Assembly: GCA_030765065.1 (NCBI GenBank)
Contig: CM060977.1
Coordinates: forward strand, 95,187,795 to 95,251,794
Direction: 5' to 3'
DNA length: 64,000 bases
Source: Deroplatys truncata
Lineage: Eukaryota > Arthropoda > Insecta > Mantodea > Mantidae
In this document: positions 7,206 to 49,195 of the stretch, piece after piece
Position numbering within the stretch: the stretch's first letter is position 1
Layout of the letters: each line of letters begins with the position of its first letter
Translations under genes and position numbers: made by a program
The notes under the pieces: model-generated
The model's input: the letters and a program-made list of their open reading frames with translations, nothing else
Databases searched by the model: none
What the model was told of the DNA's origin: nothing

Positions 7206-7206
7206 T

Positions 7207-8074: not shown

Positions 8075-8262
8075 TTAGTCCCGACCTACTGAACGGGACG
8101 GAGTGACTAGGAATCTATTCCGTACCGCACACGTTTTATTCATTTCCTCCTGAATGAAAATCCTGACAGAATTGGCCATGGATTGACTACCAAGTTGCCC
8201 TATTGGCAATGTATTGATATGTCTTTGCTACCACGTAATATTTTGCTTTAAGTAATTTTATA

Positions 8263-23705: not shown

Positions 23706-24134
23706 TTTAATGAACTCCAACGTATCATTCATTTAGCACAGAAAGGGACCACTCTCTTGTTTGGGAGTTAAATGTTTAAATTAAAAATACTTAAGATATC
23801 AAGGACAGGGTGCATTTCACAATAATCCAGAATGGAAAAAGAATGAGTTAAGCACTAGATCGTGCCCAAACGAAATGATCTAACTCAGCAACTTAGTGAT
23901 GATACTGATATAGAAGAAGCTCGCAACATTTTGAGATGGGAGTTACTTAAAGGCTGTTGAATCCGTGTCGCAAACATTTAAAAACGCTGTGAAAATAATA
24001 TAAACAATGAAGTTGGTAATACTTGCGGGATTAAGCGTAAAGCCTTCAAGTGTCTATGCGCATTCCAGAAAAATGAGAACTCATCATTCCACAAATGCTG
24101 CAGCTGCCCTGTATCTACCACCAAGATAAAAGAT

Positions 24135-25596
24135 GGTCATGGTCATCGTGGTAGTGGTAGTGTGGTGGGTCGTGTTTGTGATAGTGCTGGACGTGATCGT
24201 GGTTGTGGTGGTGATAGTTGTGATTGGGTGGTGGATGTGGTCGTGGTGGTGGTCGTCATGATTGTAGTGGTGGATGTGGTCGTGGTGGCGGTGGTGTTGG
24301 TGTTGGTAGTCGTGATCGTGATGGTGGTCGTCGTGATTGTAGTGGTGGATGTGGTCGTGGTGGCGGTGGTGTTAGTAGTCGTGATCGTGATGGTGGTCGT
24401 CGTGATTGTAGTGGTGGATGTGGTCGTGGTGGCGGTGTTGTAGTCGTGATCGTGATGGTGGTCGTCGTGATTGTAGTGGTGGATGTGGTCGTGGTGGCGG
24501 TGGTGTTAGTAGTCGTGATCGTGATGGTGGTCGTCGTGATTGAGTGGTAGATGTGGTCGTGGTGGCGGTGTTGTAGTCGTGATCGTGATGGTGGTCGTCG
24601 TGATTGTAGTGGTGGATGTGGTCGTGGTGGCGGTGGTGTTAGTAGTCGTGATCGTGATGGTGGTCGTCGTGATTGTAGTGGTGAATGTGATCGCGGCGGC
24701 GGCGGTGGTGTTGGTGGTCGTCATGATTGTAATGTTGGATATGGTCGTGGTGGCGGTGGCGGTGGTGTTGGTGTTGGTGTTGGGAGTCGTGATCGAGATG
24801 GTGGTCGTCGTGATTGTAGTGGTGGATGTGGTCGTGGCGGCGGTGGTGTTGGTGTTGGTAGTCGTGATCGTGATGGTGGTCGTCGTGATTGTAGTGGTGG
24901 TCGTGATTGTAGTGGTGGATGTGGTCGTGGTGGCGGTGGTGTTGGTGTTGGGAGTCGTGATCGAGATGGTGGTCGTCGTAATTGTAGTGGTGGATGTGGT
25001 CGTGGCGGCGGTGGTGTTGGTGTTGGTAGTCGTGATCGTGATGGTGGTCGTCGTGATTGTAGTGGTGGTCGTGATTGTAGTGGTGGATGTGGTCGTGGTG
25101 GCGGTGGTGTTGGTGTTGGGAGTCGTGATCGAGATGGTGGTCGTCGTGATTGTAGTGGTGGATGTGGTCGTGGCGGCGGTGGTGTTGGTGTTGGTAGTCG
25201 TGATCGTGATGGTGGTCGTCGTGATTGTAGTGGTGGATGTGGTCGTGGTGGCGGTGGTGTTGGTGTTGGTAGTCGTGATCGTTGCGGTGGTCGTCGTGAT
25301 TGTAGTGGTGGATGTGGATGTGATTGTGGTGGTGGTCGTGATTGTGATGGTGGATGTGGTCGTGGTGGCGGTGGTATTAGTGGTGGTCGTAATCGTGGTA
25401 GTGGTGGTCGTCGTTATAGTGGTGGTAGATGTGGTCATTGTGACGGTGGTCGTCGTGAACGTGGTGGTGGTCGTGATCGTGGTGGTGGTGGTCGTAATCG
25501 TGGTAGTGGTGGTCGTCGTTATAGTGGTGGTAGATGTGGTCATTGTGGCGGTGGTCGTCGTGAACGTGGTGGTGGTCGTGATCGTGGTGGTGGTGG
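24135..25596. repeat. GT-rich minisatellite, about 60-95 bp units
   Basis: Units share GGTGGATGTGGTCGTGG, TGTTGGTGTTGGTAG, TCGTGATCGTGATGG and TGGTCGTCGTGATTG. The block has extreme strand asymmetry: G and T on plus, C and A on minus. Because stop codons are nearly absent, long frames are open in most phases (over 340 codons on each strand) and code for V-rich, G/R-rich or T-rich strings. No start context, domain or splice pattern supports a gene. Confidence 0.9.
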
Positions 25597-25849: not shown

Positions 25850-26660
25850 AAAATTGATACATTCACATGACCTTTTCTACCAACTATAATTTATTAGTGC
25901 TTATATAAACTATTGTTGCTGAAGCTTATTTTTCTACCTACTACATTTTAATCCAAATAAACCTATCCGAAAAAAATGCTGCATTACACATTTTGTTGTA
26001 GATGGCAAGGGAATAATGTTTTATAACTGGACCTTAAATTCCGTACTCTTTCCATGACAACGCAGGAAACAACTGAAAATCGACAAGGCTTGAAACGAAT
26101 GGCTAAATAATGAACAATTAAAACCATTAAATACGGATATCTTAGAAATGGCTTATGCCACACAAAACTTATTAGAAATAAATTGTGTATTTTAAAGAGA
26201 TCTACGTTATTTGTGTAGTACGTTTTCGTCTGTTGCTTAACACTTATACAAGGTTATACATAATCCCTTCCAAATGAAGAAGGCTTCACAGGCTATTCGC
26301 AGAAACTTCAAGATATACGTTTTATTTGGCATATAAATATGTTTAGTATATGTATTTTAATTTAAATCACTAGAACCATTTTTAAAAAATAAAATATTTC
26401 GAAAAATGTTCCATGTAAAGCATATTTTGGAATAGGGCATTTCCATGAAAATCTTCGTGTCGCATTTTTGGAAGATGCTGAACCTAAATACCAACTTTTG
26501 TGTTTTTTCCGACCTTTCGGTTTTGAATTATGCTGTTCAAAGACATACATGGATTCAATGGTCCTTAAAACATGTATTTCCGATGAAATCTCCGTATCGA
26601 ATTTTTGGGGGAATGCAATAGCTTTCCTACGTACTAAGTACGTGATAGAGAAAGTATTAG
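25850..26660 (-). repeat. family A repeat, second subfamily
   Basis: Tail landmark ACATTCACATGACC at left, head at right ending ACTAAGTACGTGATAGAGA. Central boxes differ from the copy at 7207 (AACCATTAAATACGG, TTTGTGTAGTACG), defining a second subfamily shared with the copies at 49230, 51028, 59737 and 61846. Confidence 0.75.
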
Positions 26661-28478: not shown

Positions 28479-29029
28479 TCTTATTATATATATAACAAGC
28501 TAGGTATTTAAGTGTCGGGAACCACGGTACATCCATATAAACATTGATATTAATGTGAATAACGTTATACAACTGTAAATACGCGTATGTTAAATGTAAT
28601 GGAGGCTAGCTATCCGTGTAGGTGAAAGTTAGGTACATGACGCCAAGCGGTACCAGGCAGAGACATTTATGCGTCAGCATAAAACACAGGATATACGCTA
28701 AACATGATTTGCAGAGACGCTAAGGAATTAGAAAGAGATAGCGAGAGACCTGGAACAGAAATGGAAAGTTCAGGCTCGTCATAAGAAGAGATTATGTTAA
28801 TGTAATCAGCCAATCAACTTGGCGCTCTAAGATAGTTAAGAAAAAAGTAGTGCCGTATGCAGGGTATATAAAAGACTAACCCCGAGATTACCACGACTTG
28901 TTACAATATCGTCAGTGAGTGAACTACTTAATGCCACTTTAATGGCGGGGTTGTGAAGAAGCTGTTAGCAATTTAGGATATATATATATATGTATATATA
29001 TATACATATATACTAAACGCATAAGCCTG
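28479..29029. other. left flank of the 17-kb element, promoter-like motif
   Basis: A TATATAAAAG motif at about 28865-28874 is followed by a TCAGT initiator-like word at about 28912. No ORF follows. It may be the remains of an LTR promoter. An AT dinucleotide run occupies about 28978-29012. The last six bases, AGCCTG (29024-29029), are the left target duplication of the 17-kb element. Confidence 0.4.
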
Positions 29030-30169
29030 AGTAGTAGGGAAATGATGGTTCTGGGCCACTTAATATGCATGGAATGTCAATTAATATGCTAATTATCCCC
29101 ACCCCCTCCCCCTCCCCCCTTCCCCCGCTGTGCCCTTGGTAGTTTTAATTGCAGCTGCGGTCGTAAATCTTGTTGAGTACAATGGAGGCTTGACAGTTAA
29201 GCAATTAAGGCTGTCAATCAACTGTCAAAACGAACAAAGGGGTCATAAATATAATGTTCTGTAACAAAGGCGAGATGTTTTTCCTACCCATTCCACATCC
29301 GACCACTTCTGCACTTGTTGCAGTTATCCACTCCACTCCTATTGTTTGTCGAACACGTGGCATACTCATTCCACTAGCTTTTAACAAAAGAACAATGCTT
29401 ACCCTTCAGCTGTCAAAATGAACAAAGCCCATGATGAATTAGGGTTGTGACAAAGAGAACCTAAGCCAGTTAACAGAGTCACAAGTTCTATTGTCCGGTG
29501 CAAGCCTTTATTTCTCATTCCACTGTCCCCATAACAAAGCCGGTCCCTTTCCATTGTGGAAGAGATTCTGTTGTGTGTGCCTTTCTATTGTCCCGGGCAA
29601 GCATTCTTTAGAAAGACCATCTGGCATACTCATTCCACTGCTCCATAACAAAGCCGGTCCCTTTCATTGTGTAAGAGATTCTATTGTATGCCTTTCTATT
29701 GTCCCGGGCAAGACTAGTTTAGAAAGACACCTGCGGCGTTTCCCATTCCACTGCTCCATAACAAAGCCTGACCCTTTCTATTGTTCGAGCACCTGGTAGC
29801 TTAACAAAAGAATTCGAGGGTTGCTTCGTGCTCGTCCTGTCCTTGTTTGCGTGAAAGAGAGAGAAACTTGTTTACCAACTCTGCGTAACAACGTCAGAGT
29901 CGGCCATCATTATTTTTTTGCCCTGAGGGGCTGTTCTCTCCGATGTTCTACGAGATCCTACGAATATACCCGAGCATAGTTAACAAGCATTCTGCTTGGC
30001 CCATTTCAGGCAGGGACTCTGAAAAAGCGCCTAATATACATTTCATTACATGCATTAAACCTCTGTGTGGATATCCATAGATCGGTGCTCGATTCTTGCT
30101 GTAATCAAAAGTTTATTGCTAATGAGAAATTGATGATTCATATTATTATATCATTACCCTAATTAATAA

Positions 30170-30830
30170 AAGGGCGTTCAGAGGATTGTAGCTCGAATCT
30201 TACCAAGTGAAACTCTAACGCGCAATAACTATTAAACTATGCAAGGTCAGATTAAAAAAAATGTATTTATCAAATATAATTTAATTTTTTATATATCATT
30301 ACCCTAATTAATGAAAGGGCGTTCAGAGGGTTCTAGCTCGAATCTTACGCAGCGAAACTCTAATGCGCAATAACTATTAAACTATGCACGGCCGGATTAA
30401 AATGTATTTAATAAATATAATTTAATTTTTATATATCATTACAATAATTAATAAAAAGGGTGTTCAGAGGGTCCTAGATCGAATCTGCGAAACTCTAATG
30501 CACAATAACTATTAAACTATGCACGGCTAGATTAAAATTTATTTAACAAATATAATTTAATTAATGAAACGGTGTTCAGAGGGTTCTAGATCGAATCTGA
30601 GAAACTCTAATGCTTAATAAATATTAAACTATATGAGTATTGGGCGGTCAGATTAAAACGTGTTTAACAAATATGATTTAATTTATACGAGATTACAATG
30701 TTTAACGAGCTGTATTCTTAGGAACCAGAGGCCCATAGTTTGAATCTTACCCTGCGAAACGTTATAATAACTATTAAAATATTGAAGCAGGGGGCGGTCG
30801 GATTAAAAGTGCATTTAGCAAATATAATTA
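30170..30830 (+). repeat. tandem units of 110-150 bp in left arm
   Basis: Five units carry a CGAATC-type box at about 30194, 30339, 30480, 30592 and 30741 (the last TGAATC), each followed by GAAACTCTAATGC or a variant and AATAACTATTAAACTAT. AT-rich linkers TATAATTTAATT separate them. The boxes resemble a Pol III B box but no A box is evident. Confidence 0.75.
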
Positions 30831-30894
30831 TTTATATTAAACCTGGTGCATACTTAGATATCCCGATGCCTAGACAACATTCTTTCTTCTTCTC

Positions 30895-31345
30895 CTCTCT
30901 TTTTCTTTCTATCTATCTCTTTCTTTCTCCACGACTTGTACACATTCAGGCGTTCGCATATACACGAGCACTTGTACACACATCAGCAAACATAAACTGG
31001 TGCAGGCATGCACACACACGCACACACGTACATGTAAGTACACACACGCACACATATACACACACGCAGATACATACAACAGTACACACACATAAACCAG
31101 TACACACACGCATTCACGCACCTCATGCGTATACATACATACACTAGTGGTCTTACACTCAAACATACATATACATGGACACACACATACACGCACACAC
31201 ACTCGCGTACATACATACATACACTGTTACACTTGCACATACGCACACGACCACACACACGTCCAAGCACATATGCCTGTTCACTTACATCCAACAGCGC
31301 CAACCCACACACGCACACACCAACTCATGCGCATGCCCTGAATGA
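30895..31345 (+). repeat. CA/ACAC-rich simple repeat, left arm
   Basis: Long interrupted run of CACA and ACATAC words. It gives open frames on both strands (110-135 codons) that consist of His/Thr or Cys/Val strings and are not genes. The right arm has the matching GT-rich run at about 43855-44275. Confidence 0.9.
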
Positions 31346-31399
31346 AAAGAGACAAAATGATACAATAAAAACTAATTATAGCTCCGATGCAAGGCACAT

Positions 31400-32170
31400 T
31401 TACGATTTGCTCGAAACCGGTCTGGATGCAGGGGTTCGAATCCTAGGAGTGATTACAAATTCATCTTCTAATAACTCCAAAACTAATTAAAATAAAAACA
31501 GTAAATAAGCTTTATTACTTTTATGTCATTAATTCCTTTCTTGTGCATGTATATTAAAGTCCAGGTATCATGGGGTCGATACTTAATTTTAAAATCTCAA
31601 TTATCTCAGAAACTAGAAGGGATTAAGGTGCGGACCAAAGCACGATTTTTAGTTCTTATGATGAACAATTAATGCTTTATATAATTTCCAATCAGTTATC
31701 CCTAGCTCGAATCCCGATCTTTCAGTGACTTCCTTAATTTTCCACTGTGCTCTAGAATATATCACATAGATCGATGCTGTAACTCCATACAGGTCTCTTA
31801 AACACATCAAACTAATATAATAAATAATTTTGTTTCTGGCGTTCTGAGTTCGAATACCGATTCAATGAAGTTTACTTATAAATTTAATAACATAGTAAAT
31901 AATTAAGACAAAGGCACCAAATAAATCTATTACGTTAATAATATCCAGCGGTGTATATTAGGGTACCTGACGTCCTGGGTTTGATCCTTAAGTTTAAATC
32001 TCAATTATTGCAGAAACTAACAGAGATAAAGCTGTAGACGAAAGCATGTTTGATAGCTCATACAATGAACAATTAATGCTGTATATAATTTCCAAACAGT
32101 TGCCCATAGTTCTAATCCCGATCTTTCAATGACTTCCTTAATTTTCCTCTGTACACTAGAATGTAACTGT
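31400..32170 (+). repeat. higher-order repeat of about 135-bp units, left arm
   Basis: Boxes related to GGTTCGAATCC recur at about 31434, 31574, 31706, 31849, 31978 and 32110. Units 31562-31760 and 31962-32160 are especially alike (AAATCTCAATTAT, TATATAATTTCCAA, GATCTTTCA), giving a roughly 400-bp period made of three units. The array resumes the spacing of the array at 30170-30830 on the other side of the CA run. Confidence 0.65.
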
Positions 32171-32393
32171 ATGCAGCTTTGTGTAACGACATTATGCATG
32201 TACTTCGTGAGAGAGAGAGAGAGCGAGAGAGGGAGAGAGAGCGAGAGGAAGTGAAACAAGTAGGGATAGAAGTGCTGAGCGCCTCCGCGCATGCGCAGCA
32301 AGAGATGATGTCATTGAATGCAATAATCACGTGACGTGTAAGCATCACAGCCATGATGACGTAACGACATCGCCTGGAGGGGGTTTAGATCCC

Positions 32394-32400
32394 TATATAA
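32394..32400 (+). promoter_or_regulatory. TATA box of the small spliced gene, left arm
   Basis: TATATAA lies 124 bp upstream of the ATG at 32524, with a TGACGTAA word about 38 bp further upstream. The right arm has the same arrangement, TTATATA at 42781-42787 on the minus strand. Confidence 0.5.
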
Positions 32401-32523
32401 ACAGATATCTGCCCATGTTAGAACTGTTGTGTGCTTATTAACTTTACATTCAAGTTTAAAGAGCATTAAAAGCAACGTGAGCTGCAGGCCGTCTACACAT
32501 TCAGCACATATCAAAACGTGACA

Positions 32524-33505
32524 ATGCAAGGTGAGTTTTACATAACTATACAAAATCACTGTTGGCTTTTACAATACATTTAATTTTGTTTAAACGTTAC
32601 AGTACATGAAAGACGATTCGCTGCAAAGAGCATCATATTTTCTAATCTGTGCTTTACATTCACATGGATTTCACTGCATACTCTTCTCCAGTTCACATGA
32701 TTTTCGCCACACATTCTTCTTACATAAACACTCATACGACTTTCCCCCTCATTCTTTGTTTCACTATACACTCACATGATTTCCTCTACTCATTCTTTGT
32801 TCCCCCTGCAGGTTCATGCTCTGTTAACATTCACACGACTTTCTCTGCACATTCTTTGCTTCCATTAACATTCACACGATCTTCGCTACACATTCTTCTA
32901 ACATAAATATTCATACGATTTTCCCCCACTCATTCTTTGTTTCATTATACATTCGCACACGATTTCCTCTACTCATTCTTTGGTTCTCTGCTGGCTCATC
33001 TTCAATGAACATTCACATGATTTTCTGTACTTATTCTTTATTTCTCTACATATTCAAAGGCGTACTTACAAAACATACACACCCTAGTTCTAATATAAAG
33101 AAGTGTATAACTTGTTCTTCAACTTAAATAATGTAAAGAAAATAATAATTCATGACAATGTCTGTTACAGATTGTTTAGCTGATAGACTTAACAAGATGG
33201 TTGAAGAGCGTAGTTTCCTACCGACTCGTAGAGTAGAAGATCTCGAAACAGGTCTTAACTATGAGATAAAGTCCTTAAAGAGAGTTCAAACAAGATATGG
33301 TACCAGGATCGTATCTTCGCTGGAGGATTGTCAAGTGTTCTTGCCAGAGCGCTATAATTCGTTAACCGATCAAGAGATTGCAGAAATACCTGGGAACGTA
33401 TACCTCCAGTATAATGGCATGGCAGAGACGGGGAAATTTAAGACATGTAAATTGTCTTTTTTACATGCAAAGAAGGTGCGTAGAAGTGTCAAACTTAAGT
33501 ATTGA
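32524..33505 (+). CDS. small spliced gene, OB-fold-like protein, left arm
   Basis: Two exons: 32524-32530 (ATG CAA G) and 33171-33505, joined over a 640-bp intron with GTGAGT at its start and TGTTACAG at its end. The product is 113 residues starting MQDCLADRL. Without splicing the frame would open at 33152. The protein has a K-x-V-T/Q-R-Y-G core (SLKRVQTRYGTRIV) then FLPERY, which I associate, from memory only, with small nucleic-acid-binding-like proteins accompanying arthropod Maverick-like and small DNA virus elements. An AATAAA at 34235-34240 may end the transcript. The function is inferred and not shown. Confidence 0.55.
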
Positions 33506-33714
33506 ATGTTCTCCTATTTCACAATGAAAAATTCATAAATAAAACAACTGACTCATTGATATTACATATAAAGATACAAAAGATGCATATAATAGAATTT
33601 TATAAAAAATTTACGAAATCACAATATCACATGCTATGAGTTTAATTATATCTAGCGCATTGAAATAACTCTAAATATCCGAATGTTTATACAAATCTTT
33701 GTCCTTCATTTTAC

Positions 33715-34056
33715 ATGTATCATATGCTTCATTTTACATGTATCATAACAAAAAATGTAATTCTTTTCAGGTTGCCTTTACTTGGACAAGATAGTTTTCT
33801 AAGACTTTCATTGTGCAATGTTTCAGGGTGTGCAATAAGAGGAAGAAGAAGAGGAATAGCCTGCTGCCATGCAAAGGATACTGACGCTATTGGAGGGTGG
33901 AATAAGCACCATCGGCACCTACAAGAAACATTTCGGCAAGAAACGGGTGCTGAGACATCTACATCACCGAAACACATTAAGACAGGATACTTATATAACA
34001 TTACAGGGTATACGATGAAAAAATACGGCCAATTTTGTATACAATTCAATGCATAG
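33715..34056 (+). CDS. uncharacterised 113-codon ORF, left arm
   Basis: Open from the ATG at 33715 to the stop at 34054. A possible 3' splice site (TTCTTTTCAG) ends at 33770 inside it, so the true coding part may be a later exon of the upstream gene. The C-terminal half contains Cys and His residues (GIACCHAKD, GGWNKHHRH) but no family I can name. The antisense strand is also open for 106 codons, so coding sense is uncertain. Confidence 0.3.
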   Translation: MYHMLHFTCIITKNVILFRLPLLGQDSFLRLSLCNVSGCAIRGRRRGIACCHAKDTDAIGGWNKHHRHLQETFRQETGAETSTSPKHIKTGYLYNITGYTMKKYGQFCIQFNA

Positions 34057-34392
34057 CTGAGAGTTAGATCGAACTAGTCTCCCTATATTCACTGAAATTA
34101 AGCATTGTGAGCAATAATTTAAGTGACTGTGAAAATACTTTAAGTAATGGTGAAATTTGTATCCTAAAAGACTTGAGCCCTGTATACATTAACAGCATTA
34201 AGACTGTTTGCTACGCTGGAATACAAATTATGAAAATAAAATGACTTTCATTTAAATAATAAGGAAATTTGCATAACCTGCTATTGCAAGTGTAATGACA
34301 TATACAGAAACAATGAGTCGGAAGAGAAAGTGATGGAAATGTAAGATAAATAATAACAATAAAAGAATTAAAGTATGCTTTTATATAGTGCT

Positions 34393-34398
34393 TTTATT
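34393..34398 (-). terminator. poly(A) signal of minus-strand unit, left arm
   Basis: AATAAA on the minus strand at 34398-34393 lies about 170 bp past the stop of the capsid-like remnant. It faces the plus-strand AATAAA at 34235-34240, so the two signals overlap in opposite directions and the arm's two units converge and overlap at their 3' ends. Confidence 0.4.
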
Positions 34399-34567
34399 CA
34401 TTAAAAATCATTGCATGCCTAATGAAAAATAAATCATTACAATGATTAGTTTAAGTTATGTCACAATGATCAAAAAGAGAACCGTCTTTAGATGCATTAC
34501 TTGATCTTAAGTCAGAGCACCAAAAATGACAAACACGGCTTCTCCATTTTAGATGTCGTGTCACTAT

Positions 34568-34895
34568 TCAGGTAAATTCCTGTAACACAGCAGGTTGAGT
34601 ATGCAGATCCGTGCTCCTAAACGGGTGAAACAGTGTCTTATCCAGCTTAACAGTCTTGAGGATCTCCGCATCAGAAAGTCGAATCACAAGCCTTCTCCAC
34701 TCGATGAGTACAGGTTTAACAACAGCATTCTCTTCACCCTGAGACGGTGTAAAGTATATAAATGTTCAACTTGACAAGGGATTCTAAGCTCGTTGTTAGA
34801 GTCCAGAGCTGATGTATTATATGGTGAAAACACATGTTTCTCTTCTTAGCGATCTTGTCCTCGAATCTCGGTGTCGGTAACATTGAAGATATCCC
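34568..34895 (-). pseudogene. capsid-like remnant, left arm
   Basis: Two minus-strand coding pieces in different frames. The first, at about 34855-34760, has PYNTSALDSNNELRIP followed by VEHLYTL. The second, at about 34760-34568, has IEWRRLVIRLSDAEIL, then FRSTDLHTQPAVLQ, and stops at 34570-34568. From memory of the family, these resemble the N-terminal and C-terminal parts of the capsid-like protein of arthropod Maverick-type elements, joined here by a large internal deletion and a frame change. The usual middle is absent, so no particle protein is made. Confirmation needs a profile search. Confidence 0.45.
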
Positions 34896-34899
34896 ATGA

Positions 34900-35049
34900 T
34901 TATAGGATTCTGAAGCCCAATAACAGTAGGAACTGCTGATTGCGTGATGTTAACCTGATGGGCGTCAAGGGCAGAGCATGATGTGTGCGTCGAATCATTC
35001 CATTATTATATCCTCGACGTCGTTGACTTCTTCTAAAATCTATAGGCAT
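34900..35049 (-). CDS. 49-residue Arg-rich ORF, left arm
   Basis: Starts at the ATG at 35049 and ends at 34900. The N-terminus is basic (FRRSQRRRGYNNG). It lies directly upstream of the capsid-like remnant in the same direction. Short Arg-rich proteins ahead of the capsid gene occur in related elements, where they may pack DNA, but length and truncation make this a guess. It may be a stub of a longer protein. Confidence 0.35.
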   Translation of the reverse strand: MPIDFRRSQRRRGYNNGMIRRTHHALPLTPIRLTSRNQQFLLLLGFRIL

Positions 35050-35403
35050 TATGCTTATATCCTTGTTTCTAAAGGCAATGATATTGCTGTTATGCTCCCC
35101 TGTTTTCTCTATGAAGCGGATGTTTATGAACAGGTAAAATTTGATTTGATGGTTCCTGTGAAATACGGTATCCTGCCGTAACTGATGGGAAAACTGGTAG
35201 ATGGAGTGTCCACTTTTACTATAGAGGAAGGAGACTGATGCAATACTGCGCTAAATTCGTATGATGCTCAACCTAAATATATTCACTAGGAAATCAGATT
35301 AAGACAACTGATTAGGTGGAATAACTTTGTCACTGAAGGGCCACAGAACGTTCCTATAGAACAATCACTGGAAAAAAATCAAGAGCGAAAGGACATTTTA
35401 ATG

Positions 35404-35404
35404 A

Positions 35405-35445
<41 letters not shown>

Positions 35446-35450
35446 TTATT
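35404..35450. repeat. TTA microsatellite, left arm
   Basis: About 14 TTA units. The right arm has only a short version at 39755-39770, showing replication slippage after the arms separated. Confidence 0.95.
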
Positions 35451-35688
35451 CACTGATCTAATAAAGAAGACATTCGCATCCTAATATGAGGAATCTTTAA
35501 ACGTAGGGCATACAAGTCAAGGTCTATGTTACTCAATGCTTTTTCCGGGACAAGTATAGCCCTCTACCTGAGTTTTTTGAATTCCCTTTCAGGCTCTGTC
35601 TCCTCTTCGTTTCTGTGTTTCTTCCCTTATTCTTCTTCACTCTAAAACCTCTCCCTCTTGCTTCAATTTCTCTGTTACGTCTCATCAT

Positions 35689-36039
35689 TTAAGCAAGTTG
35701 TTTAGCCGCAGCTTTTTTCTTATTTACAGCTGTAGCAATTTGTGATGCACCTCCAGCGGCGGCTCCTAGTGCTGCAATAATTTGTATGAGCGGTAGAAAC
35801 CCTCCTCGTTTCTTCTTTTTGGACCCTCCGCCAACAGATACCTTTCTCTCAATTTTTCTCTTGTGCCTCATCATTTCGGCAAGTTGTTTACCTGCTGCCT
35901 TTTTCTTATTTACTGCTGAGGCATTTTGGGCTGCACCTCCAGCAGCAGCGCCTAGAGCTGCAATAATTGGTATGAGAGGTAGAAATCCTCCTCGTTTCTT
36001 CTTCGTGGTTCCTGCACCTGGAGCTACCTTTCCCTTCAT
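35689..36039 (-). CDS. basic ORF with two core-X/mu-like motifs
   Basis: A 116-residue frame starting at the ATG at 36039, in the core next to the left arm. It is two near-identical units of about 52 residues, each with a Lys-rich stretch, then GGFLPLI and a Gly/Ala helix (AALGAAAGGA), then a basic tail (AEMMRHKRKIE in unit 1). The basic-plus-GGFLPLI pattern matches in kind the C-terminus of adenovirus core protein X (mu) and PX-like proteins of adenovirus-related elements, which condense DNA and may act on membranes. Unit 2 ends at a TAA (35689-35691) where unit 1 has GAA. The frame continues beyond it with a further basic stretch, so the ORF looks shortened by a nonsense change. Confidence 0.6.
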   Translation of the reverse strand: MKGKVAPGAGTTKKKRGGFLPLIPIIAALGAAAGGAAQNASAVNKKKAAGKQLAEMMRHKRKIERKVSVGGGSKKKKRGGFLPLIQIIAALGAAAGGASQIATAVNKKKAAAKQLA

Positions 36040-36592
36040 AATTGCTTTTACTAGTCACGCTGCCAACTTTTTCACCTAATGTACATCAGATGTTTGCACG
36101 CTTTTCCAAGTCGTTTCAGCCAGATCTTGTCAGCAATGTTTCTCGAAGCAGAGTCCTTATGCTGAGCGTGGGCAATGCCGCTAAGATTACACGATTCGTC
36201 TAACGGAATGATTCCAGGGTCTCCTCTCTTTAATTTTTCTCTAGCTTTACCCCAGTTCCACAGTATATGTAACCAGGTAAATGTACTTCAACGGTTGCAG
36301 GCTAGTGAGAGAGTTAATTAAACCGAAAACTCTCGCGAGCTTAACCACCTTATCTCTCACGTTATACTAATTGATTTTTATTCGGGATAGTTCTTTTATA
36401 CTTTCTCATTAGCGTATATACATTAAGAGCGATTTATTTTATTTTAGCTGTCAGGCTAGAGCGGATGAAACAAGAATGCTCACAGCCTATTCATATGTTA
36501 GACTTTTAAACCGACTTTAGACGTGAACTTAGTGGAAAACTGCTTCATGTCAATGTTCTTGACGTGCCCATCCTGTAACCCATTCAGGGAAA

Positions 36593-38105
36593 AGGTGACC
36601 AGCAAAGGGAAAAACGTGACCAGTAAAGGGACAATTGTGACTAGCAAAGGGAAAAAGGTGATCAGTAAAGGGAAAAAGGTGACCAGCAAAGCGAAACACG
36701 TGACCAGCAAAGGGAAAAACGTGACCAGCAAAGGGAAAAAGGTGACCAGTAAAGGGGAAAATGTGACCAGCAAAAGGAAAAAGGTGACCAGTAAAGGAAA
36801 AAATGTGACCAGCAAAGGGAAAAATGTTACCAGCAAAGGGAAAAACGTGACCAGCAAAGCGAGAAACTGTGACCAGCAAAGGGAAAAACGTGACCAGCAA
36901 AGGGAAAAAGGTGACCAGCAAATGGAAAAAACGTGACCAGCAAAGGGAAAAAGGTGACCAGCAAAGGGAAAAAGGTGACCAGTAAAAGGAAAAAGGTGAC
37001 CAGCAAAGCGAAAAACGTGACCAGCAAAGGGAAAAACGTGACCAGCAAAGGGAAAAAGGTGACCAGGAAAGGGAAAAATGTGACCAGCAAAGGGAAAAAG
37101 GTGACCAGTAAAGGGAAAAGTGTGACCAGCAAAGGGAAAAAGGTGACCAGCAAAGGGAAAAAGGTGACCAGTAAAGGGAAAATTGTGACCAGCAAAGGGA
37201 AAAATGTGACTAGCAAAGGGAAAAAGGTGACCAGCAAAGGGAAAAAGTTTACCAGTAAAGCGAAAAAGGTGAACAGCAATGCGAAAACGTGACCAGCAAA
37301 GGGAAAAACGTGAATAGCAAAGGGAAAAAGGTGACCAGTAAAGGGAAAAAGGCGACCAGTAAAGGGAAAAATGTGACCAGCAAAGGGAAAAATGTGACCA
37401 GCAAAGGGAAAAAGGTGACCAGCAAAGGGAAAAATGTGACCAGCAAAGGTAAGAAGGTGACCATTAAAGGGAAAATGTGACGAGCAAAGGGAAAAAGGTG
37501 ACCAGTAAAGGGAAAAATGTGACCAGCAAAGGGAAAAAGGTGACCAGCAAAGGGAAAAACGTGACCAGCAAAGAGAAAAAGGTGACCAGTAAAGGGAAAA
37601 ATGTGACCAGCAAAGGGAAAAATGTGACCAGCAAAGGGAAAAATGTGACAGCAAAGGGAAAAACGTGACCAGCAAAGGGAAAAAGGTGACCAGTAAAGGG
37701 AAAAATGTGAGCAGCAAAGGGAAAAATGTGACCAGCAAAGGGAAAAATGTGACCAGTAAAGGGAAAAATGTTACCAGCAAAAGGAAAAAAGGTGACCAGC
37801 AAAGGGAAAAAAGGTGACCAGCAAAGGGAAAAACGTAACCAGCAAAGGGAAAAATGTGACCAGCAAAGGGAAAAATGTCACCAGCAAAGGGAAAAAGGTG
37901 ACCAGCAAAGGGAAAAATGAGACCAGCAAAGGGAAAAAGGTGACCAGCAAAGGGAAAAAGGTGACACTAAAGGGAAAAATGGGACGAGCAAAGGGAAAAA
38001 CGTGACCTGCAAAGGGGAAAAAGGTGACCAGCAAAGGGAGGAATGTGACCAGCAAAGGGAAAAAGGTGACAGCAAAGGGAAAAAAGGTGACCAGCAAAGG
38101 GAAAA
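36593..38105 (+). repeat. 21-bp minisatellite in the core (about 72 units)
   Basis: Consensus GTGACCAGCAAAGGGAAAAA with one further base, units mostly 21 bp. Frequent variants are CAGTAAAGG and AACGTG/AATGTG/AAGGTG. Because the unit is seven codons, the plus strand is open in pieces of 63-137 codons as VTSKGKK repeats and the minus strand as LVTFFPL repeats. One- and two-base indels break each frame several times. Confidence 0.9.
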
Positions 38106-38109
38106 TGAC

Positions 38110-39050
38110 CAGTATCTCACTCAACTCTCGCATTCTCTGTGCTAACTATCAAGAAAACTTGTACTCTTATCTCTATGAATCCATTTCTAGCTACTTGAAT
38201 CTGCTTGTGCTTAATGAGATAGTTATAATTAACGGAATTACAACTATTATGTGCGAGTGCTACAATATTTTGCTTAGTCTAATTCGGACATGGCTGTCTA
38301 TATACATCAAAACCTGAGTATATATATAAATACATAAATGTTAAAAAACAGCTCAGTCTCGTGTGAAGCGATTACTTTGACCCAAGATTACCTGGATTAT
38401 ACAAGGAATAATGGCTTGAAGATATATTCATAAAATAATTAACAACCGTATTCTTTAGTTTAATAACTCAACATCAATATCACACAAATGATTACAATTA
38501 TCATTCCCTATTTCTTTTTAGAGTTTACAGTTTCAACATTATTATTCGATTACAATTTTTACAATTTGCTTCCTGCTCTCACATTTAAAGCTTTATAGTT
38601 AAACGCCAAGAATAAATATCTCTACCCGACGATAAGTCTTTACCGCTGCCCAATTACCAAAAAAGAATTTTAAATATATTTAGCCGAAAGAGAATTTTGT
38701 ATACCGTGCCGAATGCCTCTATCTGACGTGATCCTGCTTGTTTCCCTCGATAAAGACAGACTGGTTCGTCCTCCCAGCCGGGACGTTCGAGCAGATTGAG
38801 TGTTTTTGCGCCTGCGCAGTCGACGAGTCTCGTGGCGTGACCCACTACGTGAGTCCAAACTTGTGCTGGTTCTTCTTCTTGTAGCGAACTGATTAAAGAA
38901 CTACTACGTTGCTCGTTGCACTTCTTTTTGCCACATTCGGCAGCGTTCCTTTGATACCTGCCCGTCGCGTAATGTATATTTCTCCTGGGAGGGTGGATTT
39001 GGCACACGTGTTATCGTATACAAACTCAACATCTACAGTATACATTGAGT
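38110..39050. other. core segment without a clear gene
   Basis: A minus-strand frame of 117 codons (38654-39007) is the largest here. It shows no domain and no mirror copy. A GC-richer patch with TGCGCCTGCGCAGTCG lies at 38805-38825. Confidence 0.4.
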
Positions 39051-39130
39051 AGTTTATATATACTGCTTGAGCATGAACACTCACAAAGACGGACAATTAC
39101 AGTCAATTTACGAGAATCTTGATTTTTCGT

Positions 39131-39646
39131 ATGTTTCCCAAAAGGGGGAGTAATCGCTTTGTTAAGTGCTGCATATGTAATAGAACTTTAAAAAACAGGA
39201 CAATTTCAAGGCTTAAGCAACATAGGAGAAGAAGCTGTAAAGCAATGGCCAGCTGTGCATTGACTACAACACCCAAACGAGATCCTGAAATCTTCTCAAG
39301 TCCCGAAGAGCGGGATTCAAGATGTACCGTACTTGGAACCAGGTCAAGCGATCCTGTAATAACGTCAAGAGCTACCACTGATGAAACAATGAGAGCAGTT
39401 TCTTTGAATGAGCAAAGTCTGAATAAACACACCAATGAAAGCAAGCATACTAGTGTCAACTCACCTAGATTAGAAGATATATCCAAAGCGAATACAGAGG
39501 AGATGCTATACCGCCACACCGATCCTAATGATTTGGTAAACATGCTAAGGGTACTCATGATGCTTCATACTCCTGATAAAAATGACTTTTCCGATGCGAT
39601 TAGCGACATTATTCAGGATTTAAAGCTGGGTGGTTTTATAGCGTGA
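39131..39646 (+). CDS. zinc-finger-like protein in the core
   Basis: 171 residues from the ATG at 39131. A TTTATATATA motif at 39053-39062 lies upstream. Residues about 12-34 form C-x2-C-x14-H-x4-C (CCICNRT ... KQHRRRSC), which suggests a DNA- or protein-binding zinc finger of BED or C2HC type. The centre is polar and Ser/Thr-rich. The C-terminus is acidic-amphipathic (DLVNMLRVLMMLH, DAISDIIQDLKLGG) and may pair with a partner. It stops 57 bp before the right arm. I cannot name a family. Confidence 0.5.
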   Translation: MFPKRGSNRFVKCCICNRTLKNRTISRLKQHRRRSCKAMASCALTTTPKRDPEIFSSPEERDSRCTVLGTRSSDPVITSRATTDETMRAVSLNEQSLNKHTNESKHTSVNSPRLEDISKANTEEMLYRHTDPNDLVNMLRVLMMLHTPDKNDFSDAISDIIQDLKLGGFIA

Positions 39647-40131
39647 TTAGCATCTGCAGAACCTTGAAACCATGAAAGAGTTAGAAAGATTCGTCATATT
39701 AGGAAGATTCCTCATATTAGGATGCGAATGTCTTCTTTATTAGATCAGTGAATAAATATAATAATAATAAAAATGCCATTAAAATGTCCTTTCACTCTTG
39801 ATTTTTTTTCCAGTGATTGTTCTATAGGAACGTTCTGTGGCCCTTCAGTGACAAAGTTATTCCATCTAATCAGCTGTCTTAATCTGATTTCCTAGTGAAT
39901 ATATTTAGGTTGAGCATCATAAAAATTTAGCGCAGTATTGCATCAGTCTCCTTCCCCTATAGTAACAGTAAGCACTCCATCTACCAGTTTTCCCATCAGT
40001 TACGGCAGGATACCGTATTTCACAGGAACCATCAAATCAAATTTTACCTGTTCATAAACATCCGCTTCATAGAGCAAACAGGGGAGCATAACAGCAATAT
40101 CATTGCCTTTAGAAACAAGGATATAAGCATA

Positions 40132-40281
40132 ATGCCTATAGATTTTAGAAGAAGTCAACGACGTCGAGGATATAATAATGGAATGATTCGACGCACACAT
40201 CATGCTCTGCTCTTGACGCCCATCAGGTTAGCATCACGCAATCAGCAGTTCCTACAGTTATTGGGCTTCAGAATCCTATAA
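40132..40281 (+). CDS. 49-residue Arg-rich ORF, right arm
   Basis: Mirror of 34900-35049, with three or so substitutions in the C-terminal half. The RRRGYNNGMIRR segment is unchanged. Confidence 0.35.
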   Translation: MPIDFRRSQRRRGYNNGMIRRTHHALLLTPIRLASRNQQFLQLLGFRIL

Positions 40282-40284
40282 TCA

Positions 40285-40613
40285 TTGGACATCTTCAATG
40301 TTACCGACACCGAGATTCGAGGACAAGATCGCTAAGAAGAGAAACATGTGTTTTCACCATATAATACATCAGCTCTGGACTCTTAACAACGAGTTTAGAA
40401 TCCCTTGTCAAGTTGAACATTTATATACTTTACACCGTCTCAGGGTGAAGAGAATGCTGTTGTTAAACCTGTACTCATCGAGTGGAGAAGGCTTGTGATT
40501 CGACTTTCTGATGCTGAGATCCTCAAGATGTTAAGCTGGATAAGACGCTGTTTCAACCATTTAGGACCACGGATCTGCATACTCAACCAGCTGTGTTACA
40601 GGAATTTACCTGA
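40285..40613 (+). pseudogene. capsid-like remnant, right arm
   Basis: Mirror of 34568-34895 but more decayed. An extra T near 40382 disrupts the first piece, and a missing C near 40529 shifts the second piece, which is still in frame in the left arm. Confidence 0.45.
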
Positions 40614-41124
40614 ATAGTGACACGACATCTAAAATGGAGAAGCCGTGTTTGTCATTTTTGGTGCTCTGACTTAAGATCGAGTAATGCATCTAAAGGCGGT
40701 TCTCTTTATGATCATTGTGACATAACTTAAACTAATCATTGTAGTGATTTATTTTTCATTAGGAATGCAAGGATTTTTAATGAATAAGAACACTATGTAA
40801 TAGCATACCTTAATTCTTTTATTGTTATTATTTATCTTACATTTCCATCACTTTCTCGTCCGACGCATTGTTTCTGTATATGTCATTACACTTGCAATAG
40901 CAGGTTATACAAATTTCCTTATTATATAAATGAAAGTCTTTTTATTTTCATAATTTGTATTCCAGCGTGGCAAATAGTCTTAATGCTGTTAATGTATACA
41001 GGGCTCAAGTCTTTTAGGATACAAATTTCACCATTACTTAAAGTATTTTCACAGTCACTTAAATTATTGCTCACAATGCTTAATTTCAGTGAATATAGGG
41101 AGACTAGTTCGATCTAACTCTCAG

Positions 41125-41466
41125 CTATGCATTGAATTGTATACAAAATTGGCCGTATTTTTTCATCGTATACCCTGTAATGTTATATAAGTATCCTGTC
41201 TTAATGTGTTTCGGTGATGTAGATGTCTCAGCACCCGTTTCTTGCCGAAATGTTTCTTGTAGGTGCCGATGGTGCTTATTCCACCCTCCAATAGCGTCAG
41301 TATCCTTTGCATGGCAGCAGGCTATTCCTCTTCTTCTTCCTCTTATTGCACACCCTGAAACATTGCACAATGAAAGTCTTAGAAAACTATCTTGTCCAAG
41401 TAAAGGCAACCTGAAAAGAATTACATTTTTTGTTATGATACATGTAAAATGAAGCATATGATACAT
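41125..41466 (-). CDS. uncharacterised 113-codon ORF, right arm
   Basis: Mirror of 33715-34056. The translation is identical to the left-arm copy over all 113 residues, and so is the antisense frame. Confidence 0.3.
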   Translation of the reverse strand: MYHMLHFTCIITKNVILFRLPLLGQDSFLRLSLCNVSGCAIRGRRRGIACCHAKDTDAIGGWNKHHRHLQETFRQETGAETSTSPKHIKTGYLYNITGYTMKKYGQFCIQFNA

Positions 41467-41675
41467 GTAAAATGAAGGACAAAGATTTGTATAAACATTC
41501 GGATATTTAGAGTTATTTCAATGCGCTAGATATAATTAAACTCAGAGCATGTGATATTGTGATTTCGTAAATTTTTTATAAAATTCTATTATATGCATCT
41601 TTGGTATCTTTATATGTAATATCAATGAGTCAGTTGTTTTATTTATGAATTTTTCATTGTGAAATAGGAGAACAT

Positions 41676-42657
41676 TCAATACTTAAGTTTGACACTTCTA
41701 CGCACCTTCTTTGCATGTAAAAAAGACAATTTACATGTCTTAAATTTCCCCGTCTCTGCCATGCCATTATACTGGAGGTATACGTTCCCAGGTATTTCTG
41801 CAATCTCTTGATCGGTTAACGAATTATAGCGCTCTGGCAAGAACACTTGACAATCCTCCAGCGAAGATACGATCCTGGTACCATATCTTGTTTGAACTCT
41901 CTTTAAGGACTTTATCTCATAGTTAAGACCTATTTCGAGATCTTCTACTCTACGAAACGGTAGGAAACTACGCTCTTCAACCATCTTGTTAAGTCTATCA
42001 GCTAAACAATCTGTAACAGACATTGTCATGAATTATTATTTTCTTTACATTATTCAAGTTGAAGAACAAGTTATACACTTCTTTATATTAGAACTAGGGT
42101 GTGTATTTTTTGTAAGTAAGCCTATGAATATGTAGAGAAATAAAGAATAAGTACAGAAAATCATGTGAATGTTCATTGAAGATGAGCCAGCAGAGAACCT
42201 AAGAATGAGTAGAGGAAATCGTGTGCGAATGTATAATGAAACAAAAAATGAGTTGGGGAAAATCGTATGAATGTTTATGTAAGAAGAATGTGTAGCGAAG
42301 ATCGTGTGAATGTTAATGGAAGCAAAGTTTGTGCAGAGAAAGTCGTGTGAATGTTAACAGAGCATGAACCTGCAGGGGGAACAAAGAATGAGTAGAGGAA
42401 ATCATGTGAGTGTATAGTGAAACAAAGAATGAGGGGGAAAGTCGTATGAGTGTTTATGTAAGAAGAATGTGTGGCGAAAATCATGTGAACTGGAGAAGAG
42501 TATGCAGTGAAATCCATGTGAATGTAAAGCACAGATTAGAAAATATGATGCTCTTTGCAACGAATCGTCTTTCATGTACTGTAACGTTTAAACAAAATTA
42601 AATGTATTGTAAAAGCCAACAGTGATTTTGTATAGTTATGTAAAACTCACCTTGCAT
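41676..42657 (-). CDS. small spliced gene, OB-fold-like protein, right arm
   Basis: Mirror copy of the left-arm gene: exon 1 at 42657-42651, intron 42650-42011 with the same GTGAGT and TGTTACAG ends, exon 2 at 42010-41676. It is also 113 residues and differs by two substitutions (T to F in the FLPTRR segment and T to I nearby). Both copies stay open although the arms have diverged. That could mean selection, recent duplication or gene conversion between arms. Confidence 0.55.
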
Positions 42658-43039
42658 TGTCATGTTTTGATATGTGCTGAATGTGTAGACGGCCTGCAGC
42701 TCACGTTGCTTTTAATGCTCTTTAAACTTGAATGTAAAGTTAATAAGCACACAACAGTTCTAACATCGGCAGATATCTGTTTATATAGGGATCTAAAACC
42801 CCTCCAGGCGATGTCGTTACGTCATCATGGCTGTGATGCTTACACTTCACGTGATTATTGCATCCAATGACATCATCTCTTGCTGCGCATCCGCGGAGGC
42901 TCTCAGCACTTCTATCCCTACTTGTTTCACTTCCTCTCGCTCTCTCTCTCCCTCACTCGCTCTCTCTCTCACACGAAGTACATCCATAATGTCGTTACAC
43001 AAAGCTGCATACAGTTACATTCTAGTGTACAGAGGAAAA

Positions 43040-43760
43040 TTAAGGAAGTCATTGAAAGATCGGGATTAGAACTATGGGCAACTGATTGGAAATTATATAC
43101 AGCATTAATTGTTCATTGTATGAGCTATCAAACATGCTTTCGTCTACAGCTCTATCTCTGTTAGTTTCAGCAATAATTGAGATTTAAACTTAAGGATCGA
43201 ACCCAGGACGTCAGGTACCCTAATATACACCGCTGGATATTATTAACGTAATAGATTTATTTGGTGCCTTTGTCTTAATTATTTACTATGTTATTAAATT
43301 TATAAATAAACTTCATTGAATCGGTATTCGAACTCAGAACGCCAGAAACAAAATTATTTATTATATTAGTTTGATGTGTTTAAGAGACCTGTATGCAGTT
43401 ACAGCATCGATTTATGTGATATATTCTAGAGCACAGTGGAAAATTAAGGAAGTAACTGAAAGATCGGGATTCGAGCTAGGGATAACTGATTGGAAATTAT
43501 ATAAAGCATTAATTGTTCATCATAAGAACTAAAAATCGTGCTTTGGTCCGCACCTTAATCCCTTCTAGTTTCTGAGATAATTGAGATTTTAAAATTAAGT
43601 ATCGAGCCCATGATACCTGGACTCTAATATACATGCACAAGAAAGGAACTAATGACATAAAAGTAATAAAGCTTACTTACTGTTTTTATTTTAATTAGTT
43701 TTGGAGTTATTAGAAGATGAATTTGTAATCACTCCTAGGATTCGAACCCCTGCATCCAGA
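43040..43760 (-). repeat. higher-order repeat, right arm
   Basis: Mirror of the 31400-32170 array, including the GGTTTCGAGC/GATTCGAACC boxes near 43740. Confidence 0.65.
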
Positions 43761-44399
43761 CCGGTTTCGAGCAAATCGGAAATGTGCCTTGCATCGGAGC
43801 TACAATTAGTTTTTATTGTATCATTTTGTCTCTTTTCATTCAGGGCATGCGCATGAGTTGGTGTGTGCGTGTGTGGGTTGGCGCTGTTGGATGTAAGTGA
43901 ACAGGTATATGTGCTTGCACGTGTGTGTGTGTGTGGTCGTGTGCGTATGCACAAGTGTAACAGTGTATGTATGTATGTACGCGAGTGCGTGTGCGTGTGC
44001 GTGTATGTTTGTGTCCATGTATATGTATGTGTGAGTGTTAGACCCCTAGTGTATGTATGTATACGCATGAGGTGCGTGAATGCGTGTGTGTACTGGTGTA
44101 TGTATGTGTGTGTGTACTGTTGTATGTATGTGCGTGTGTGTATGTGTGTGCGTATGTGTACTTACATGTACGTGTGTGCGTGTGTGTGCATGCGTGCACC
44201 AGTGTATGTTTGCTGATGTGTGTACAAGCGCTCGTGTATATGCGAACGCCTGAATGTGTACAAGTCGTGGAGAAAGAAAGAGATAGATAGAAAGAAAAAG
44301 AGAGGAGAAGAAGAAAGAATGTTGTCTAGGAATCGGGATATCTAAGTATGCACCAGGTTTAATATAAATAATTATATTTGCTAAATGCACTTTTAATCC

Positions 44400-45055
44400 G
44401 ACCGCCCCCTGCTTCAATATTTTAATAGTTATTATAACGTTTCGCAGGGTAAGATTCAAACTATGGGCCTCTGGTTCCTAAGAATACAGCTCGTTAAACA
44501 TTGTAATGTCGTATAAATTAAATTATATTTGTTAAACACGTTTTAATCTGACCGCCCAGTACTCACATAGTTTAATATTTATTAAGCATTAGAGTTTCGC
44601 AGATTCGATCTAGAACCCTCTGAACACCGTTTCATTAATTAAATTATATTTGTTAAATACATTTTAATCTAGACGTGCATAGTTTAATAGTTATTGTGCA
44701 TTAGAGTTTCGCAGATTCGATCTAGGACCCTCTGAACACCCTTTTTATTAATTATTGTAATGATATATAAAATTAAATTATATTTATTAAATACATTTTA
44801 ATCCGGCCGCGCATAGTTTAATAGTTATTGCGCATTAGAGTTTCGCTGCGTAAGATTCGAGCTAGAACCCTCTGAACGCCCTTTCATTAATTAGGGTAAT
44901 GATATATAAAAAATTAAATTATATTTAATAAATACATTTTTTTTACTCTGACCTTGCATAGTTTAATAGTTATTGCGCGTTAGAGTTTCACTTGGTAAGA
45001 TTCGAGCTACAATCCTCTGAACGCCCTTTTATTAATTAGGGTAATGATATAATAA
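44400..45055 (-). repeat. tandem units of 110-150 bp, right arm
   Basis: Mirror of 30170-30830. GATTCGAGCT and GATTCGATCT boxes recur with ATAGTTTAATAGTTATT linkers. Confidence 0.75.
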
Positions 45056-46044
45056 TATGAATCATCAATTTCTCATTAGCAATAAACTTTTGATTACAGC
45101 AAGAATCGAGCACCGATCTATGGATATCCACACAGAGGTTTAATGCATGTAATGAAATGTATATTAGGCGCTTTTTCAGAGTCCCTGCCTGAAATGGGCC
45201 AAGCAGAATGCTTGTTAACTATGCTCGGGTATATTCGTAGGATCTCGTAGAACATCGGAGAGAACAGCCCCTCAGGGCAAAAAAATAATGATGGCCGACT
45301 CTGACGTTGTTACGCAGAGTTGGTAAACAAGTTTCTCTCTCTTTCACGCAAACAAGGACAGGACGAGCACGAAGCAACCCTCAAATTCTTTTGTTAAGCT
45401 ACAAGGTGCTCGAACAATAGAAAGGGTCAGGCTTTGTTATGGAGCAGTGGAATGGGAAACGCCGCAGGTGTCTTTCTAAACTAGTCTTGCCCGGGACAAT
45501 AGAAAGGCACACACAACAGAATCTCTTCCACAATGGAAAGGGACCGGCTTTGTTATGGGGACAGTGGAATGAGAAATAAAGGCTTGCACCGGACAATAGA
45601 ACTTGTGACTCTGTTAACTGGCTTAGGTTCTCTTTGTCACAACCCTAATTCATCATGGGCTTTGTTCATTTTGACAGCTGAAGGGTAAGCATTGTTCTTT
45701 TGTTAAAAGCTAGTGGAATGAGTATGCCACGTGTTCGACAAACAATAGGAGTGGAGTGGGTAACTACAACAAGTGCAGAAGTGGTCGGATGTGGAATGGG
45801 TAGGAAAAACATCTCGCCTTTGTTACAGAACATTAAATTTATGACCCCTTTGTTCGTTTTGACAATTGATTGACAGCCTTAATTGCTTAACTGTCAAGCC
45901 TCCATTGTACTCAACAAAATTTACGACCGCAGCTGCAAGTAAAACTACCAAGGCACAGCGGGGGGGAGGGGGTGGGGCTAATTAGCATATTAATTGACAT
46001 TCCATGCATATTAAGTGGCCCAGAACCATCATTTCCCTACTACT

Positions 46045-46050
46045 AGCGTG
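46045..46050. other. right target-site duplication of the 17-kb element
   Basis: AGCGTG, against AGCCTG at 29024-29029. Five of six bases agree. Confidence 0.65.
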
Positions 46051-47870: not shown

Positions 47871-48384
47871 CTGAAGTATGAATGATATAATTACTATGTT
47901 AGTACGCTCTGCCAATTAGTTAACTGAGATAATATTTAAAATCTCTTGCTAGTGAATTTTGGGATACCTCGCAGAACCAGCCTAGGATAATTCGGTTGCC
48001 TCTTTGCCGCGTTATGCAGCAAAATTAATGTGTGACGTTTCCGGGGAGCGCCTAATAACGTTAACAACATGTTGTGTAGCCTAACAATCATCATTACAAA
48101 ATAAAACATTACAATTTAATGGTCAGTCATTAATTATTGTTAGGTTTCCAGCAAATTGGTAATAATCCACGTTTACGCAAATGTAAAAGCAGAAAATAAT
48201 GAGGATAATAATAATGATAGTAATAAATGACACACATTCATTGGGTTAACGGCTAACCGAGGTAAAGCCCTGGGGCTGCAATAGAGGTTTAGGACACGCT
48301 TTACGTGGATTTCTTTCATACCTAAAACTCAGTTCTGTTTCTAACAACAACATTTTTGCTTTCTTCTCTGTATATCTTTTTACT
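47871..48384. other. unassigned AT-rich stretch
   Basis: CCTAACCTAA at about 47850 is only two TTAGG-type units and is not a telomeric array. No ORF or RNA gene seen. Confidence 0.4.
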
Positions 48385-49195
48385 TTCTATACTACGTGTA
48401 GTAAGCAGGGCAAGTATTGCACAGCACCCAAAAATTAGGTCCCGAGATTTCACCGGAAATACATGTTTTGAGGATCCTGAATCTAAAAAAGCACATTTAT
48501 AAAAAAGTCCGTGTGTGTGTCTGTGTGCTTGTGAAAATAATAGCTCAAAAACGAAAATTCAGATAAATACCAAACTCTGAGATTTTCAAGCAAATTCCAC
48601 CACCCCAGACTACACTTTACATGCAACATTTTTCGAAAATTTAGATTTTCTAAAAACTGGCTAACGATTCTTATTAAAATATCGTATGTTTAAGATGTTT
48701 TTGTGTCAAATGAAATGTATATCTTGAATTTTGTGGAAATGACCTCAAAAGTGCTCTTTGTGACTTCCACATAACTGGTAAAAGAACAGACAAACGTTTA
48801 CTACACCAAAAATGTAGATCCCTTTGAAATACACAATTTATGTCATGTTAATTTTTTTCTCGAGTGAACCATTTCTGATATATTCCTCGTTATTTGTTTG
48901 AACTTTTCAATATTTATACCTTTTCTCAGATAGGAATTCATGTTTGTTTGTTGTTTTTTTTTTGCCTGGACATACAAAGAGAATGGAATGCTCCACATAG
49001 CAACCAGCTCTTAAGAGATCTACCATCACTTAAAATCTACCATATTCCCATTGCATCTACAAGAAAATTAACAGTAAAACAGTTTCTGCAAATGATTAAT
49101 TCGAATAACATGAATTAGATGGAGAACAAGCGTTTGTAAAAACAGTTATTACAAGAGTAGAGAAAGTGGTGTGAATACAACACATCAGATTTTTG
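48385..49195 (+). repeat. family A repeat, full length
   Basis: Head CTATACTACGTGTAGTAAGC, tail CAACACATCAGATTTTT. Same landmark order as the copy at 7207. It forms an inverted pair with the next copy. Confidence 0.75.

Follow-up and report, generated by a model that had tools for sequence, protein, structure and literature searches.

The locus examined here raises the question of what kind of mobile element devotes about three quarters of its length to two mirrored arms, and of how such arms are kept alike. It lies in the window, by which we mean the whole 64,000-nucleotide stretch analyzed from the mantis Deroplatys truncata (assembly GCA_030765065.1, contig CM060977.1, positions 95,187,795 to 95,251,794), and occupies window positions 29030-46044, a total length of 17,015 bp. 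Our analyses revealed that this element is one copy of a many-copy family, and the explanation that we regard as probable is a Maverick-derived, non-autonomous family that relies on a helper for copying and insertion and in which giant arms fixed in a founder are re-equalized, probably during replication. Self-alignment of the window recovered an inverted repeat with two arms flanking a 4.2-kb core, in agreement with the element coordinates and the arm/core layout of an original prediction made on this DNA. The main arm alignment pairs 29629-35497 with 45573-39704 (97.2% identity over 5,895 columns) and the outer one pairs 29030-29670 with 46044-45414 (94.6% over 645 columns), the two arms being about 97% identical overall. 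The extra length of the left arm derives mainly from an additional tandem unit near 29511-29784, and the outermost bases of the element are AGTAGTAGGG and their complement.

The genome from which the window comes (4.29 Gb in 818 contigs) was then searched for further copies, and the structure was found to recur at other sites. When the outermost 2 kb of the arm served as query, at least 65 matches were obtained (best 40 of 4,660 candidates), and among the matches listed at least 14 inverted pairs were present, the window copy included, the other listed places being single arms. Twelve elements were read, consisting of the window copy and 11 of the 13 other inverted pairs. The gene carried by each arm, orf118, was used as a second query; in the best 150 of 7,428 candidates its frame was open in all 150, a set ranked by score and thus biased to intact copies, and these places group into 110 clusters, which is a lower bound for the genome. 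Within the same 150 places, 40 neighboring pairs lie no more than 60 kb apart, against about 0.3 neighboring places expected by chance, and all 40 face inward (plus then minus), 39 of them at a spacing of 2.7-8.8 kb and one at 39 kb. The recurrence of this structure elsewhere in the genome indicates that it reflects neither chance nor an assembly error.

The recurrent layout consists of mirrored arms of about 6.46 kb around the core. The junction between arm and core falls at window base 35497/35498 in 8 of the 12 elements; in another element, C8, the arms are alike only up to 34633, the core sequence being present nonetheless. The core was found in 9/12 elements, each 15.0-18.6 kb long. The remaining three, L033 (8.0 kb), L034 (6.7 kb) and L027/L028 (11.2 kb), are short forms with arms of 2.6-3.1 kb, in which no match to the core was found; two of them have perfect 6-bp duplications, and in L034 the two copies differ at one base. 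At the other extreme of size, the inward arm-gene pair 39 kb apart, at C16:291847327-291886932 (the usual spacing being about 8 kb), may be explained by an insertion nested in the core or, alternatively, by a far larger relative that might contain helper genes.

From the window copy, ends of Maverick type and a target duplication of 6 bp had been proposed, and both were borne out in the other copies. All 12 elements exhibit AGTAG at both ends; in nine, including the window copy, this extends to AGTAGT at both ends, and in a tenth at one end, the ends of the family starting with AGTAGTAGGGAAATG. The 6-bp duplications are perfect in 9/12 elements and have one mismatch in three, among them the window copy, whose AGCCTG and AGCGTG flanks agree in five of six bases. 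The flanks of the elements, compared over 450 bp, are unrelated apart from one 64-bp match. The end sequences differ among elements, and within one element the two ends mostly match, the first 30 bases of partner arms being identical in six of the 12, with one to three differences in five and five differences in one.

This tendency extends along the arms. Trees were built for three arm segments, each with 9 to 11 of the 12 elements after the removal of arms that spanned under 85% of a segment, and the two arms of one element came out as sisters in 23 of 24 tests. Differences between partner arms amount to 0.3-2.5% (mean 1.3%), compared with a mean of 4.2-5.9% between elements. Additionally, 226 private alleles were common to both arms of an element and 526 were confined to one arm. 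These results show that the arms of one element evolve in concert, and they overturn the suggestion that each element holds two divergent gene copies, which are in fact near-identical.

The core carries a frame similar to adenovirus pX, with a Pfam score of 35.7 bits against a cut-off of 25. In the nine elements holding it, it is free of stops in all and also of frameshifts in seven, and its ratio of nonsynonymous to synonymous polymorphism (pN/pS) between elements is 0.57, compared with 0.80 and 0.42 in the shifted frames, hence not below both. We take the pX-like gene to be a mark of the Maverick/adintovirus lineage. It adjoins an array of 21-bp units whose length varies between elements. 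A 189-aa frame in the core gave a BED match whose 16.4 bits fall short of the 20.6 cut-off; the frame lacks stops in 7/8 siblings, but is free of both stops and frameshifts in only 2/8. A six-frame Pfam scan was performed on 107 fragments of at least 38 aa from 29030-39750, that is, the left arm and core, after four low-complexity fragments and those located for the most part within the 21-bp array had been dropped, the right arm being a mirror copy outside the scan; with the pX frame entered twice, the alignment scanned had 108 members. None of these fragments matched PolB, integrase (rve), ATPase or a transposase, which upholds for the left arm and core the proposed absence of the first three. 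Neither Pfam nor PHROGs disclosed capsid, ATPase or protease genes, the sensitivity of Pfam being limited here (it named 2/9 open reading frames above its cut-offs in a PolB Maverick). Since PolB and integrase were searched for and not found, the element is not classed as an autonomous Maverick, and from the absence of PolB, integrase and ATPase in the left arm and core we infer that it is non-autonomous.

Among 20 fetched copies, orf118 has no stop in 18 and neither stop nor frameshift in 15, and its pN/pS between elements is 0.39, the two remaining frames giving 0.77 and 0.88. Changes common to both arms comprise 12 nonsynonymous and 10 silent ones, the nonsynonymous being fewer than expected (p 0.010, or 0.025 when transition bias is allowed for), and changes found in one arm only comprise 26 and 12 (p 0.09 or 0.20); compared directly, the two classes do not differ significantly (p 0.4). 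Purifying selection on orf118 is suggested by a modest signal in the sequence comparisons, and not proved. Searches among proteins, viral contigs and the PDB scored no relative of orf118, and PHROGs returned weak, unnamed matches only. A single-sequence fold had a predicted local distance difference test (pLDDT) score of 44 and was not used. The proposed uptake of genes by the inverted repeats is a reasonable reading for orf118, which is mirrored and bears the selection signal above. The other arm frames tested (33664+, 33732-, 34903-, 29209+, 32828+, 32314-, 29443+ and 32020-) exhibited no consistent coding signal.

A search of the genome with PolB (PF03175), in which the best 76 of 11,882 candidates were scored, placed 12 of the listed matches in an open frame of 1,281 aa. 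One of them (L041/L042, C3:71.46 Mb) belongs to a Maverick with an open PolB of this length, an integrase with a chromodomain and a dUTPase, and PolB genes that share this frame length and have almost the same match scores recur on several chromosomes, suggesting recent activity. The presence of PolB and integrase means that the enzymes that the family would need exist in the genome. A weak pX-like stretch (E 0.019) was also detected in this PolB-bearing Maverick. The string AGTAGTAGGG occurs near one PolB place, L010, where it lies beyond the second PolB match by about 330 bp; it was taken as a chance match.

On the explanation that we favor, a helper Maverick would supply a protein-primed PolB that replicates the element from both ends, and the helper integrase would insert the copies. 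The giant arms would have arisen once, when one end of a founder was copied onto the opposite end and displaced the helper genes, presumably through a template switch or an end exchange on a linear replicating molecule. In later rounds of replication, the displaced strand could fold into a panhandle by pairing its own arms, or sister genomes could recombine with it; a mutation arising in either arm would thereby be copied to the other arm or lost, and a new insertion would start with almost identical arms. The family may also be packaged in helper particles, because the pX-like gene is kept and 9/12 elements have a Maverick-like size. Against packaging, the near-Maverick size is equally explained by common descent, and the three short forms moved too. 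A bolder version, doubtful and offered tentatively, would make the family a satellite virus of Mavericks, with a pX-like core gene, two mirrored orf118 copies and a filler array, replicated and packaged by the helper near wild-type length, its 6.5-kb arms being rewritten from each other in each cycle.

Several observations weigh against the helper-driven explanation. The PolB Maverick described above, read in part (18 kb), has no DNA in common with the element; of 72 PolB places compared on sixteen large contigs, the closest to any listed family copy is 68 kb away, and no helper with matching ends was identified among the PolB Mavericks compared (one of them read in part). With respect to the arms, the lone non-sister test concerns the window's own inner segment, and the partner arm was the nearest in only 70 of 107 540-bp windows, a rough projection with gaps. 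The substitutions between arms are over-dispersed (variance/mean 1.4-2.8, and 15.6 in the C1 element), and partner arms are less alike at their tips, differing at 13 of 360 positions (3.6%) in the outermost 30 bases and by 3.0% in the outermost 150, as against the arm mean of 1.3%. In the C1 element (L023/L024, C1:139.1 Mb), the outer 750 bp of one arm are unlike the partner, as if derived from another subfamily. The less alike ends, the over-dispersion, the C1 end and the 70/107 windows indicate that exchange between elements, or a conversion after insertion that fades toward the ends, also acts.

Gene conversion is known for large palindromes, and it could be conversion between the arms of the chromosomal palindrome after insertion, rather than replication, that keeps them alike. 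We regard this as possible though unlikely. It would account for the over-dispersed substitutions, with 250-bp windows that contain zero differences, and for the lower likeness of the tips beside unrelated flanks, which is expected if conversion fades there. It is harder to reconcile with an arm divergence that ranges from 0.3% to 2.5% among elements and is spread along the arms except in C1, with first 30 bases that are identical in both arms of half the elements yet different between elements, and with the 526 one-arm alleles that are still unconverted.

That the family belongs to another superfamily, as a foldback-like cut-and-paste transposon with long terminal inverted repeats that captured a pX gene, appears improbable. 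Galileo and Foldback also have long, internally repetitive inverted repeats according to the available portion of PMC3573991, and the left arm and core yielded no Maverick enzyme; the (AGT)2-type ends with 6-bp duplications fit Mavericks, however, the pX-like core gene is a virus gene, and the same scanned fragments matched no transposase. An autonomous element with unrecognized genes, in which orf118 would be the key enzyme, is a very remote prospect. In its favor, the frame is mostly intact, shows a modest signal of purifying selection and has no relatives in the searches made, but 118 residues are few for an enzyme that would have to replicate and integrate the element unaided, and no consistent coding signal came from the remaining arm frames that were tested. 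Long palindromes are a classic assembly problem, but the sibling copies refute both an assembly artefact and a simple element duplicated locally, as an inverted segmental duplication: 40/40 neighboring arm-gene pairs face inward, the 12 elements read occupy unrelated sites and carry 6-bp duplications, and eight of them have the same junction.

The features of the window copy are collected in Table 1.

Table 1. Coordinates of the element and its parts within the 64-kb window
Feature	Positions	Strand	Evidence or remark
Left target duplication copy, AGCCTG	29024..29029		Sequence; 6-bp duplications perfect in 9/12 elements read
Left arm, 6,468 bp, starts AGTAGTAGGG	29030..35497	+	Self-alignment; core junction 35497/35498 common to 8/12 elements
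orf118, left copy, 118-codon frame	33149..33505	+	Open in best 150 of 7,428 candidates; pN/pS 0.39
Core	35498..39703		Bounded by arm alignment
Adenovirus pX-like frame, two Adeno_PX stretches	35689..36054	-	PF05829, E 7.7e-9
21-bp tandem array, about 72 units	36586..38105		Length differs among elements
189-aa frame, sub-threshold BED zinc-finger match	39077..39646	+	PF02892, E 0.009
Right arm, 6,341 bp, reverse complement of left, ends CCCTACTACT	39704..46044	-	Self-alignment
orf118, mirrored right copy	41676..42032	-	98% protein identity to left copy
Right target duplication copy, AGCGTG	46045..46050		1/6 bases unlike left copy

Outside the element, the window contains a 40-bp tandem array of about 29 copies at 4849-5990 and a degenerate tandem array of GTGGTC type at 24193-25596, which is very strongly asymmetric between its strands (GC skew of 0.61 over 24001-25000). 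A dispersed repeat family surrounds the element in many copies (2158-2958, 7202-8077, 13982-14662, 26027-26656, 48373-49194, 51016-51743 and others), its longest matches spanning 0.5-0.8 kb at about 71-79% identity. No tRNA genes or Rfam matches were found within the window.

Present knowledge of end copying in Mavericks comes mainly from gene content, and a many-copy family with concerted 6.5-kb arms offers a record from which the treatment of the ends by such genomes can be read. The divergence between arms may date insertions once conversion is ruled out, with ages requiring a substitution rate, and the family would be evidence that, in a large genome, Mavericks can themselves be host to high-copy parasites.

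Adenovirus genomes in which one end has been copied onto the opposite end offer a precedent for the way in which giant terminal repeats are proposed to have arisen on a linear genome with protein-primed replication; these are laboratory virus variants, not a chromosomal family, and our literature search returned no paper on them. In Galileo and Foldback, the ends and the duplication length differ from those of the family. Among the open-licence papers listed by the searches, no description of a family of this kind was found and a phrase search for non-autonomous or defective Mavericks/Polintons gave no papers, and the available part of a giant-transposon review (PMC6431247) mentions no such form. 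The family resembles Galileo and Foldback in its long, internally repetitive inverted repeats, Galileo being classed with the P element by its transposase (PMC3573991, in the portion available). Protist Polinton-like viruses, as described in the accessible sections of PMC12220804 and PMC4642659, are virus-like elements whose inverted repeats measure hundreds to thousands of bases, duplications of 5-6 bp being present in some, and the identity of the repeats is read there as a sign of recent mobility; one such study accepted repeats of 100 bp to 8 kb (PMC12220804). Long repeats alone are thus not unprecedented. Unlike those viruses, for which capsid genes are reported in the same sections, the element has only the pX-like gene recognized, with no capsid or replication gene. 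Vertebrate Mavericks, in the available text of PMC8097293, are 12.7-24.6 kb long and have (AG)3 or (AGT)2 ends (motif 5'-(AGT)2//(ACT)2-3'), 6-bp duplications and inverted repeats of 46-1,447 bp (mean 402). The family departs from Mavericks in that PolB, integrase and ATPase were not found in its left arm and core and in that its arms bear a mirrored gene, and it departs from the vertebrate ones in that these arms reach 6.3-6.5 kb; with the latter it shares (AGT)2-type ends, 6-bp duplications, the possession of inverted repeats and, at 17.0 kb, their size (PMC8097293).

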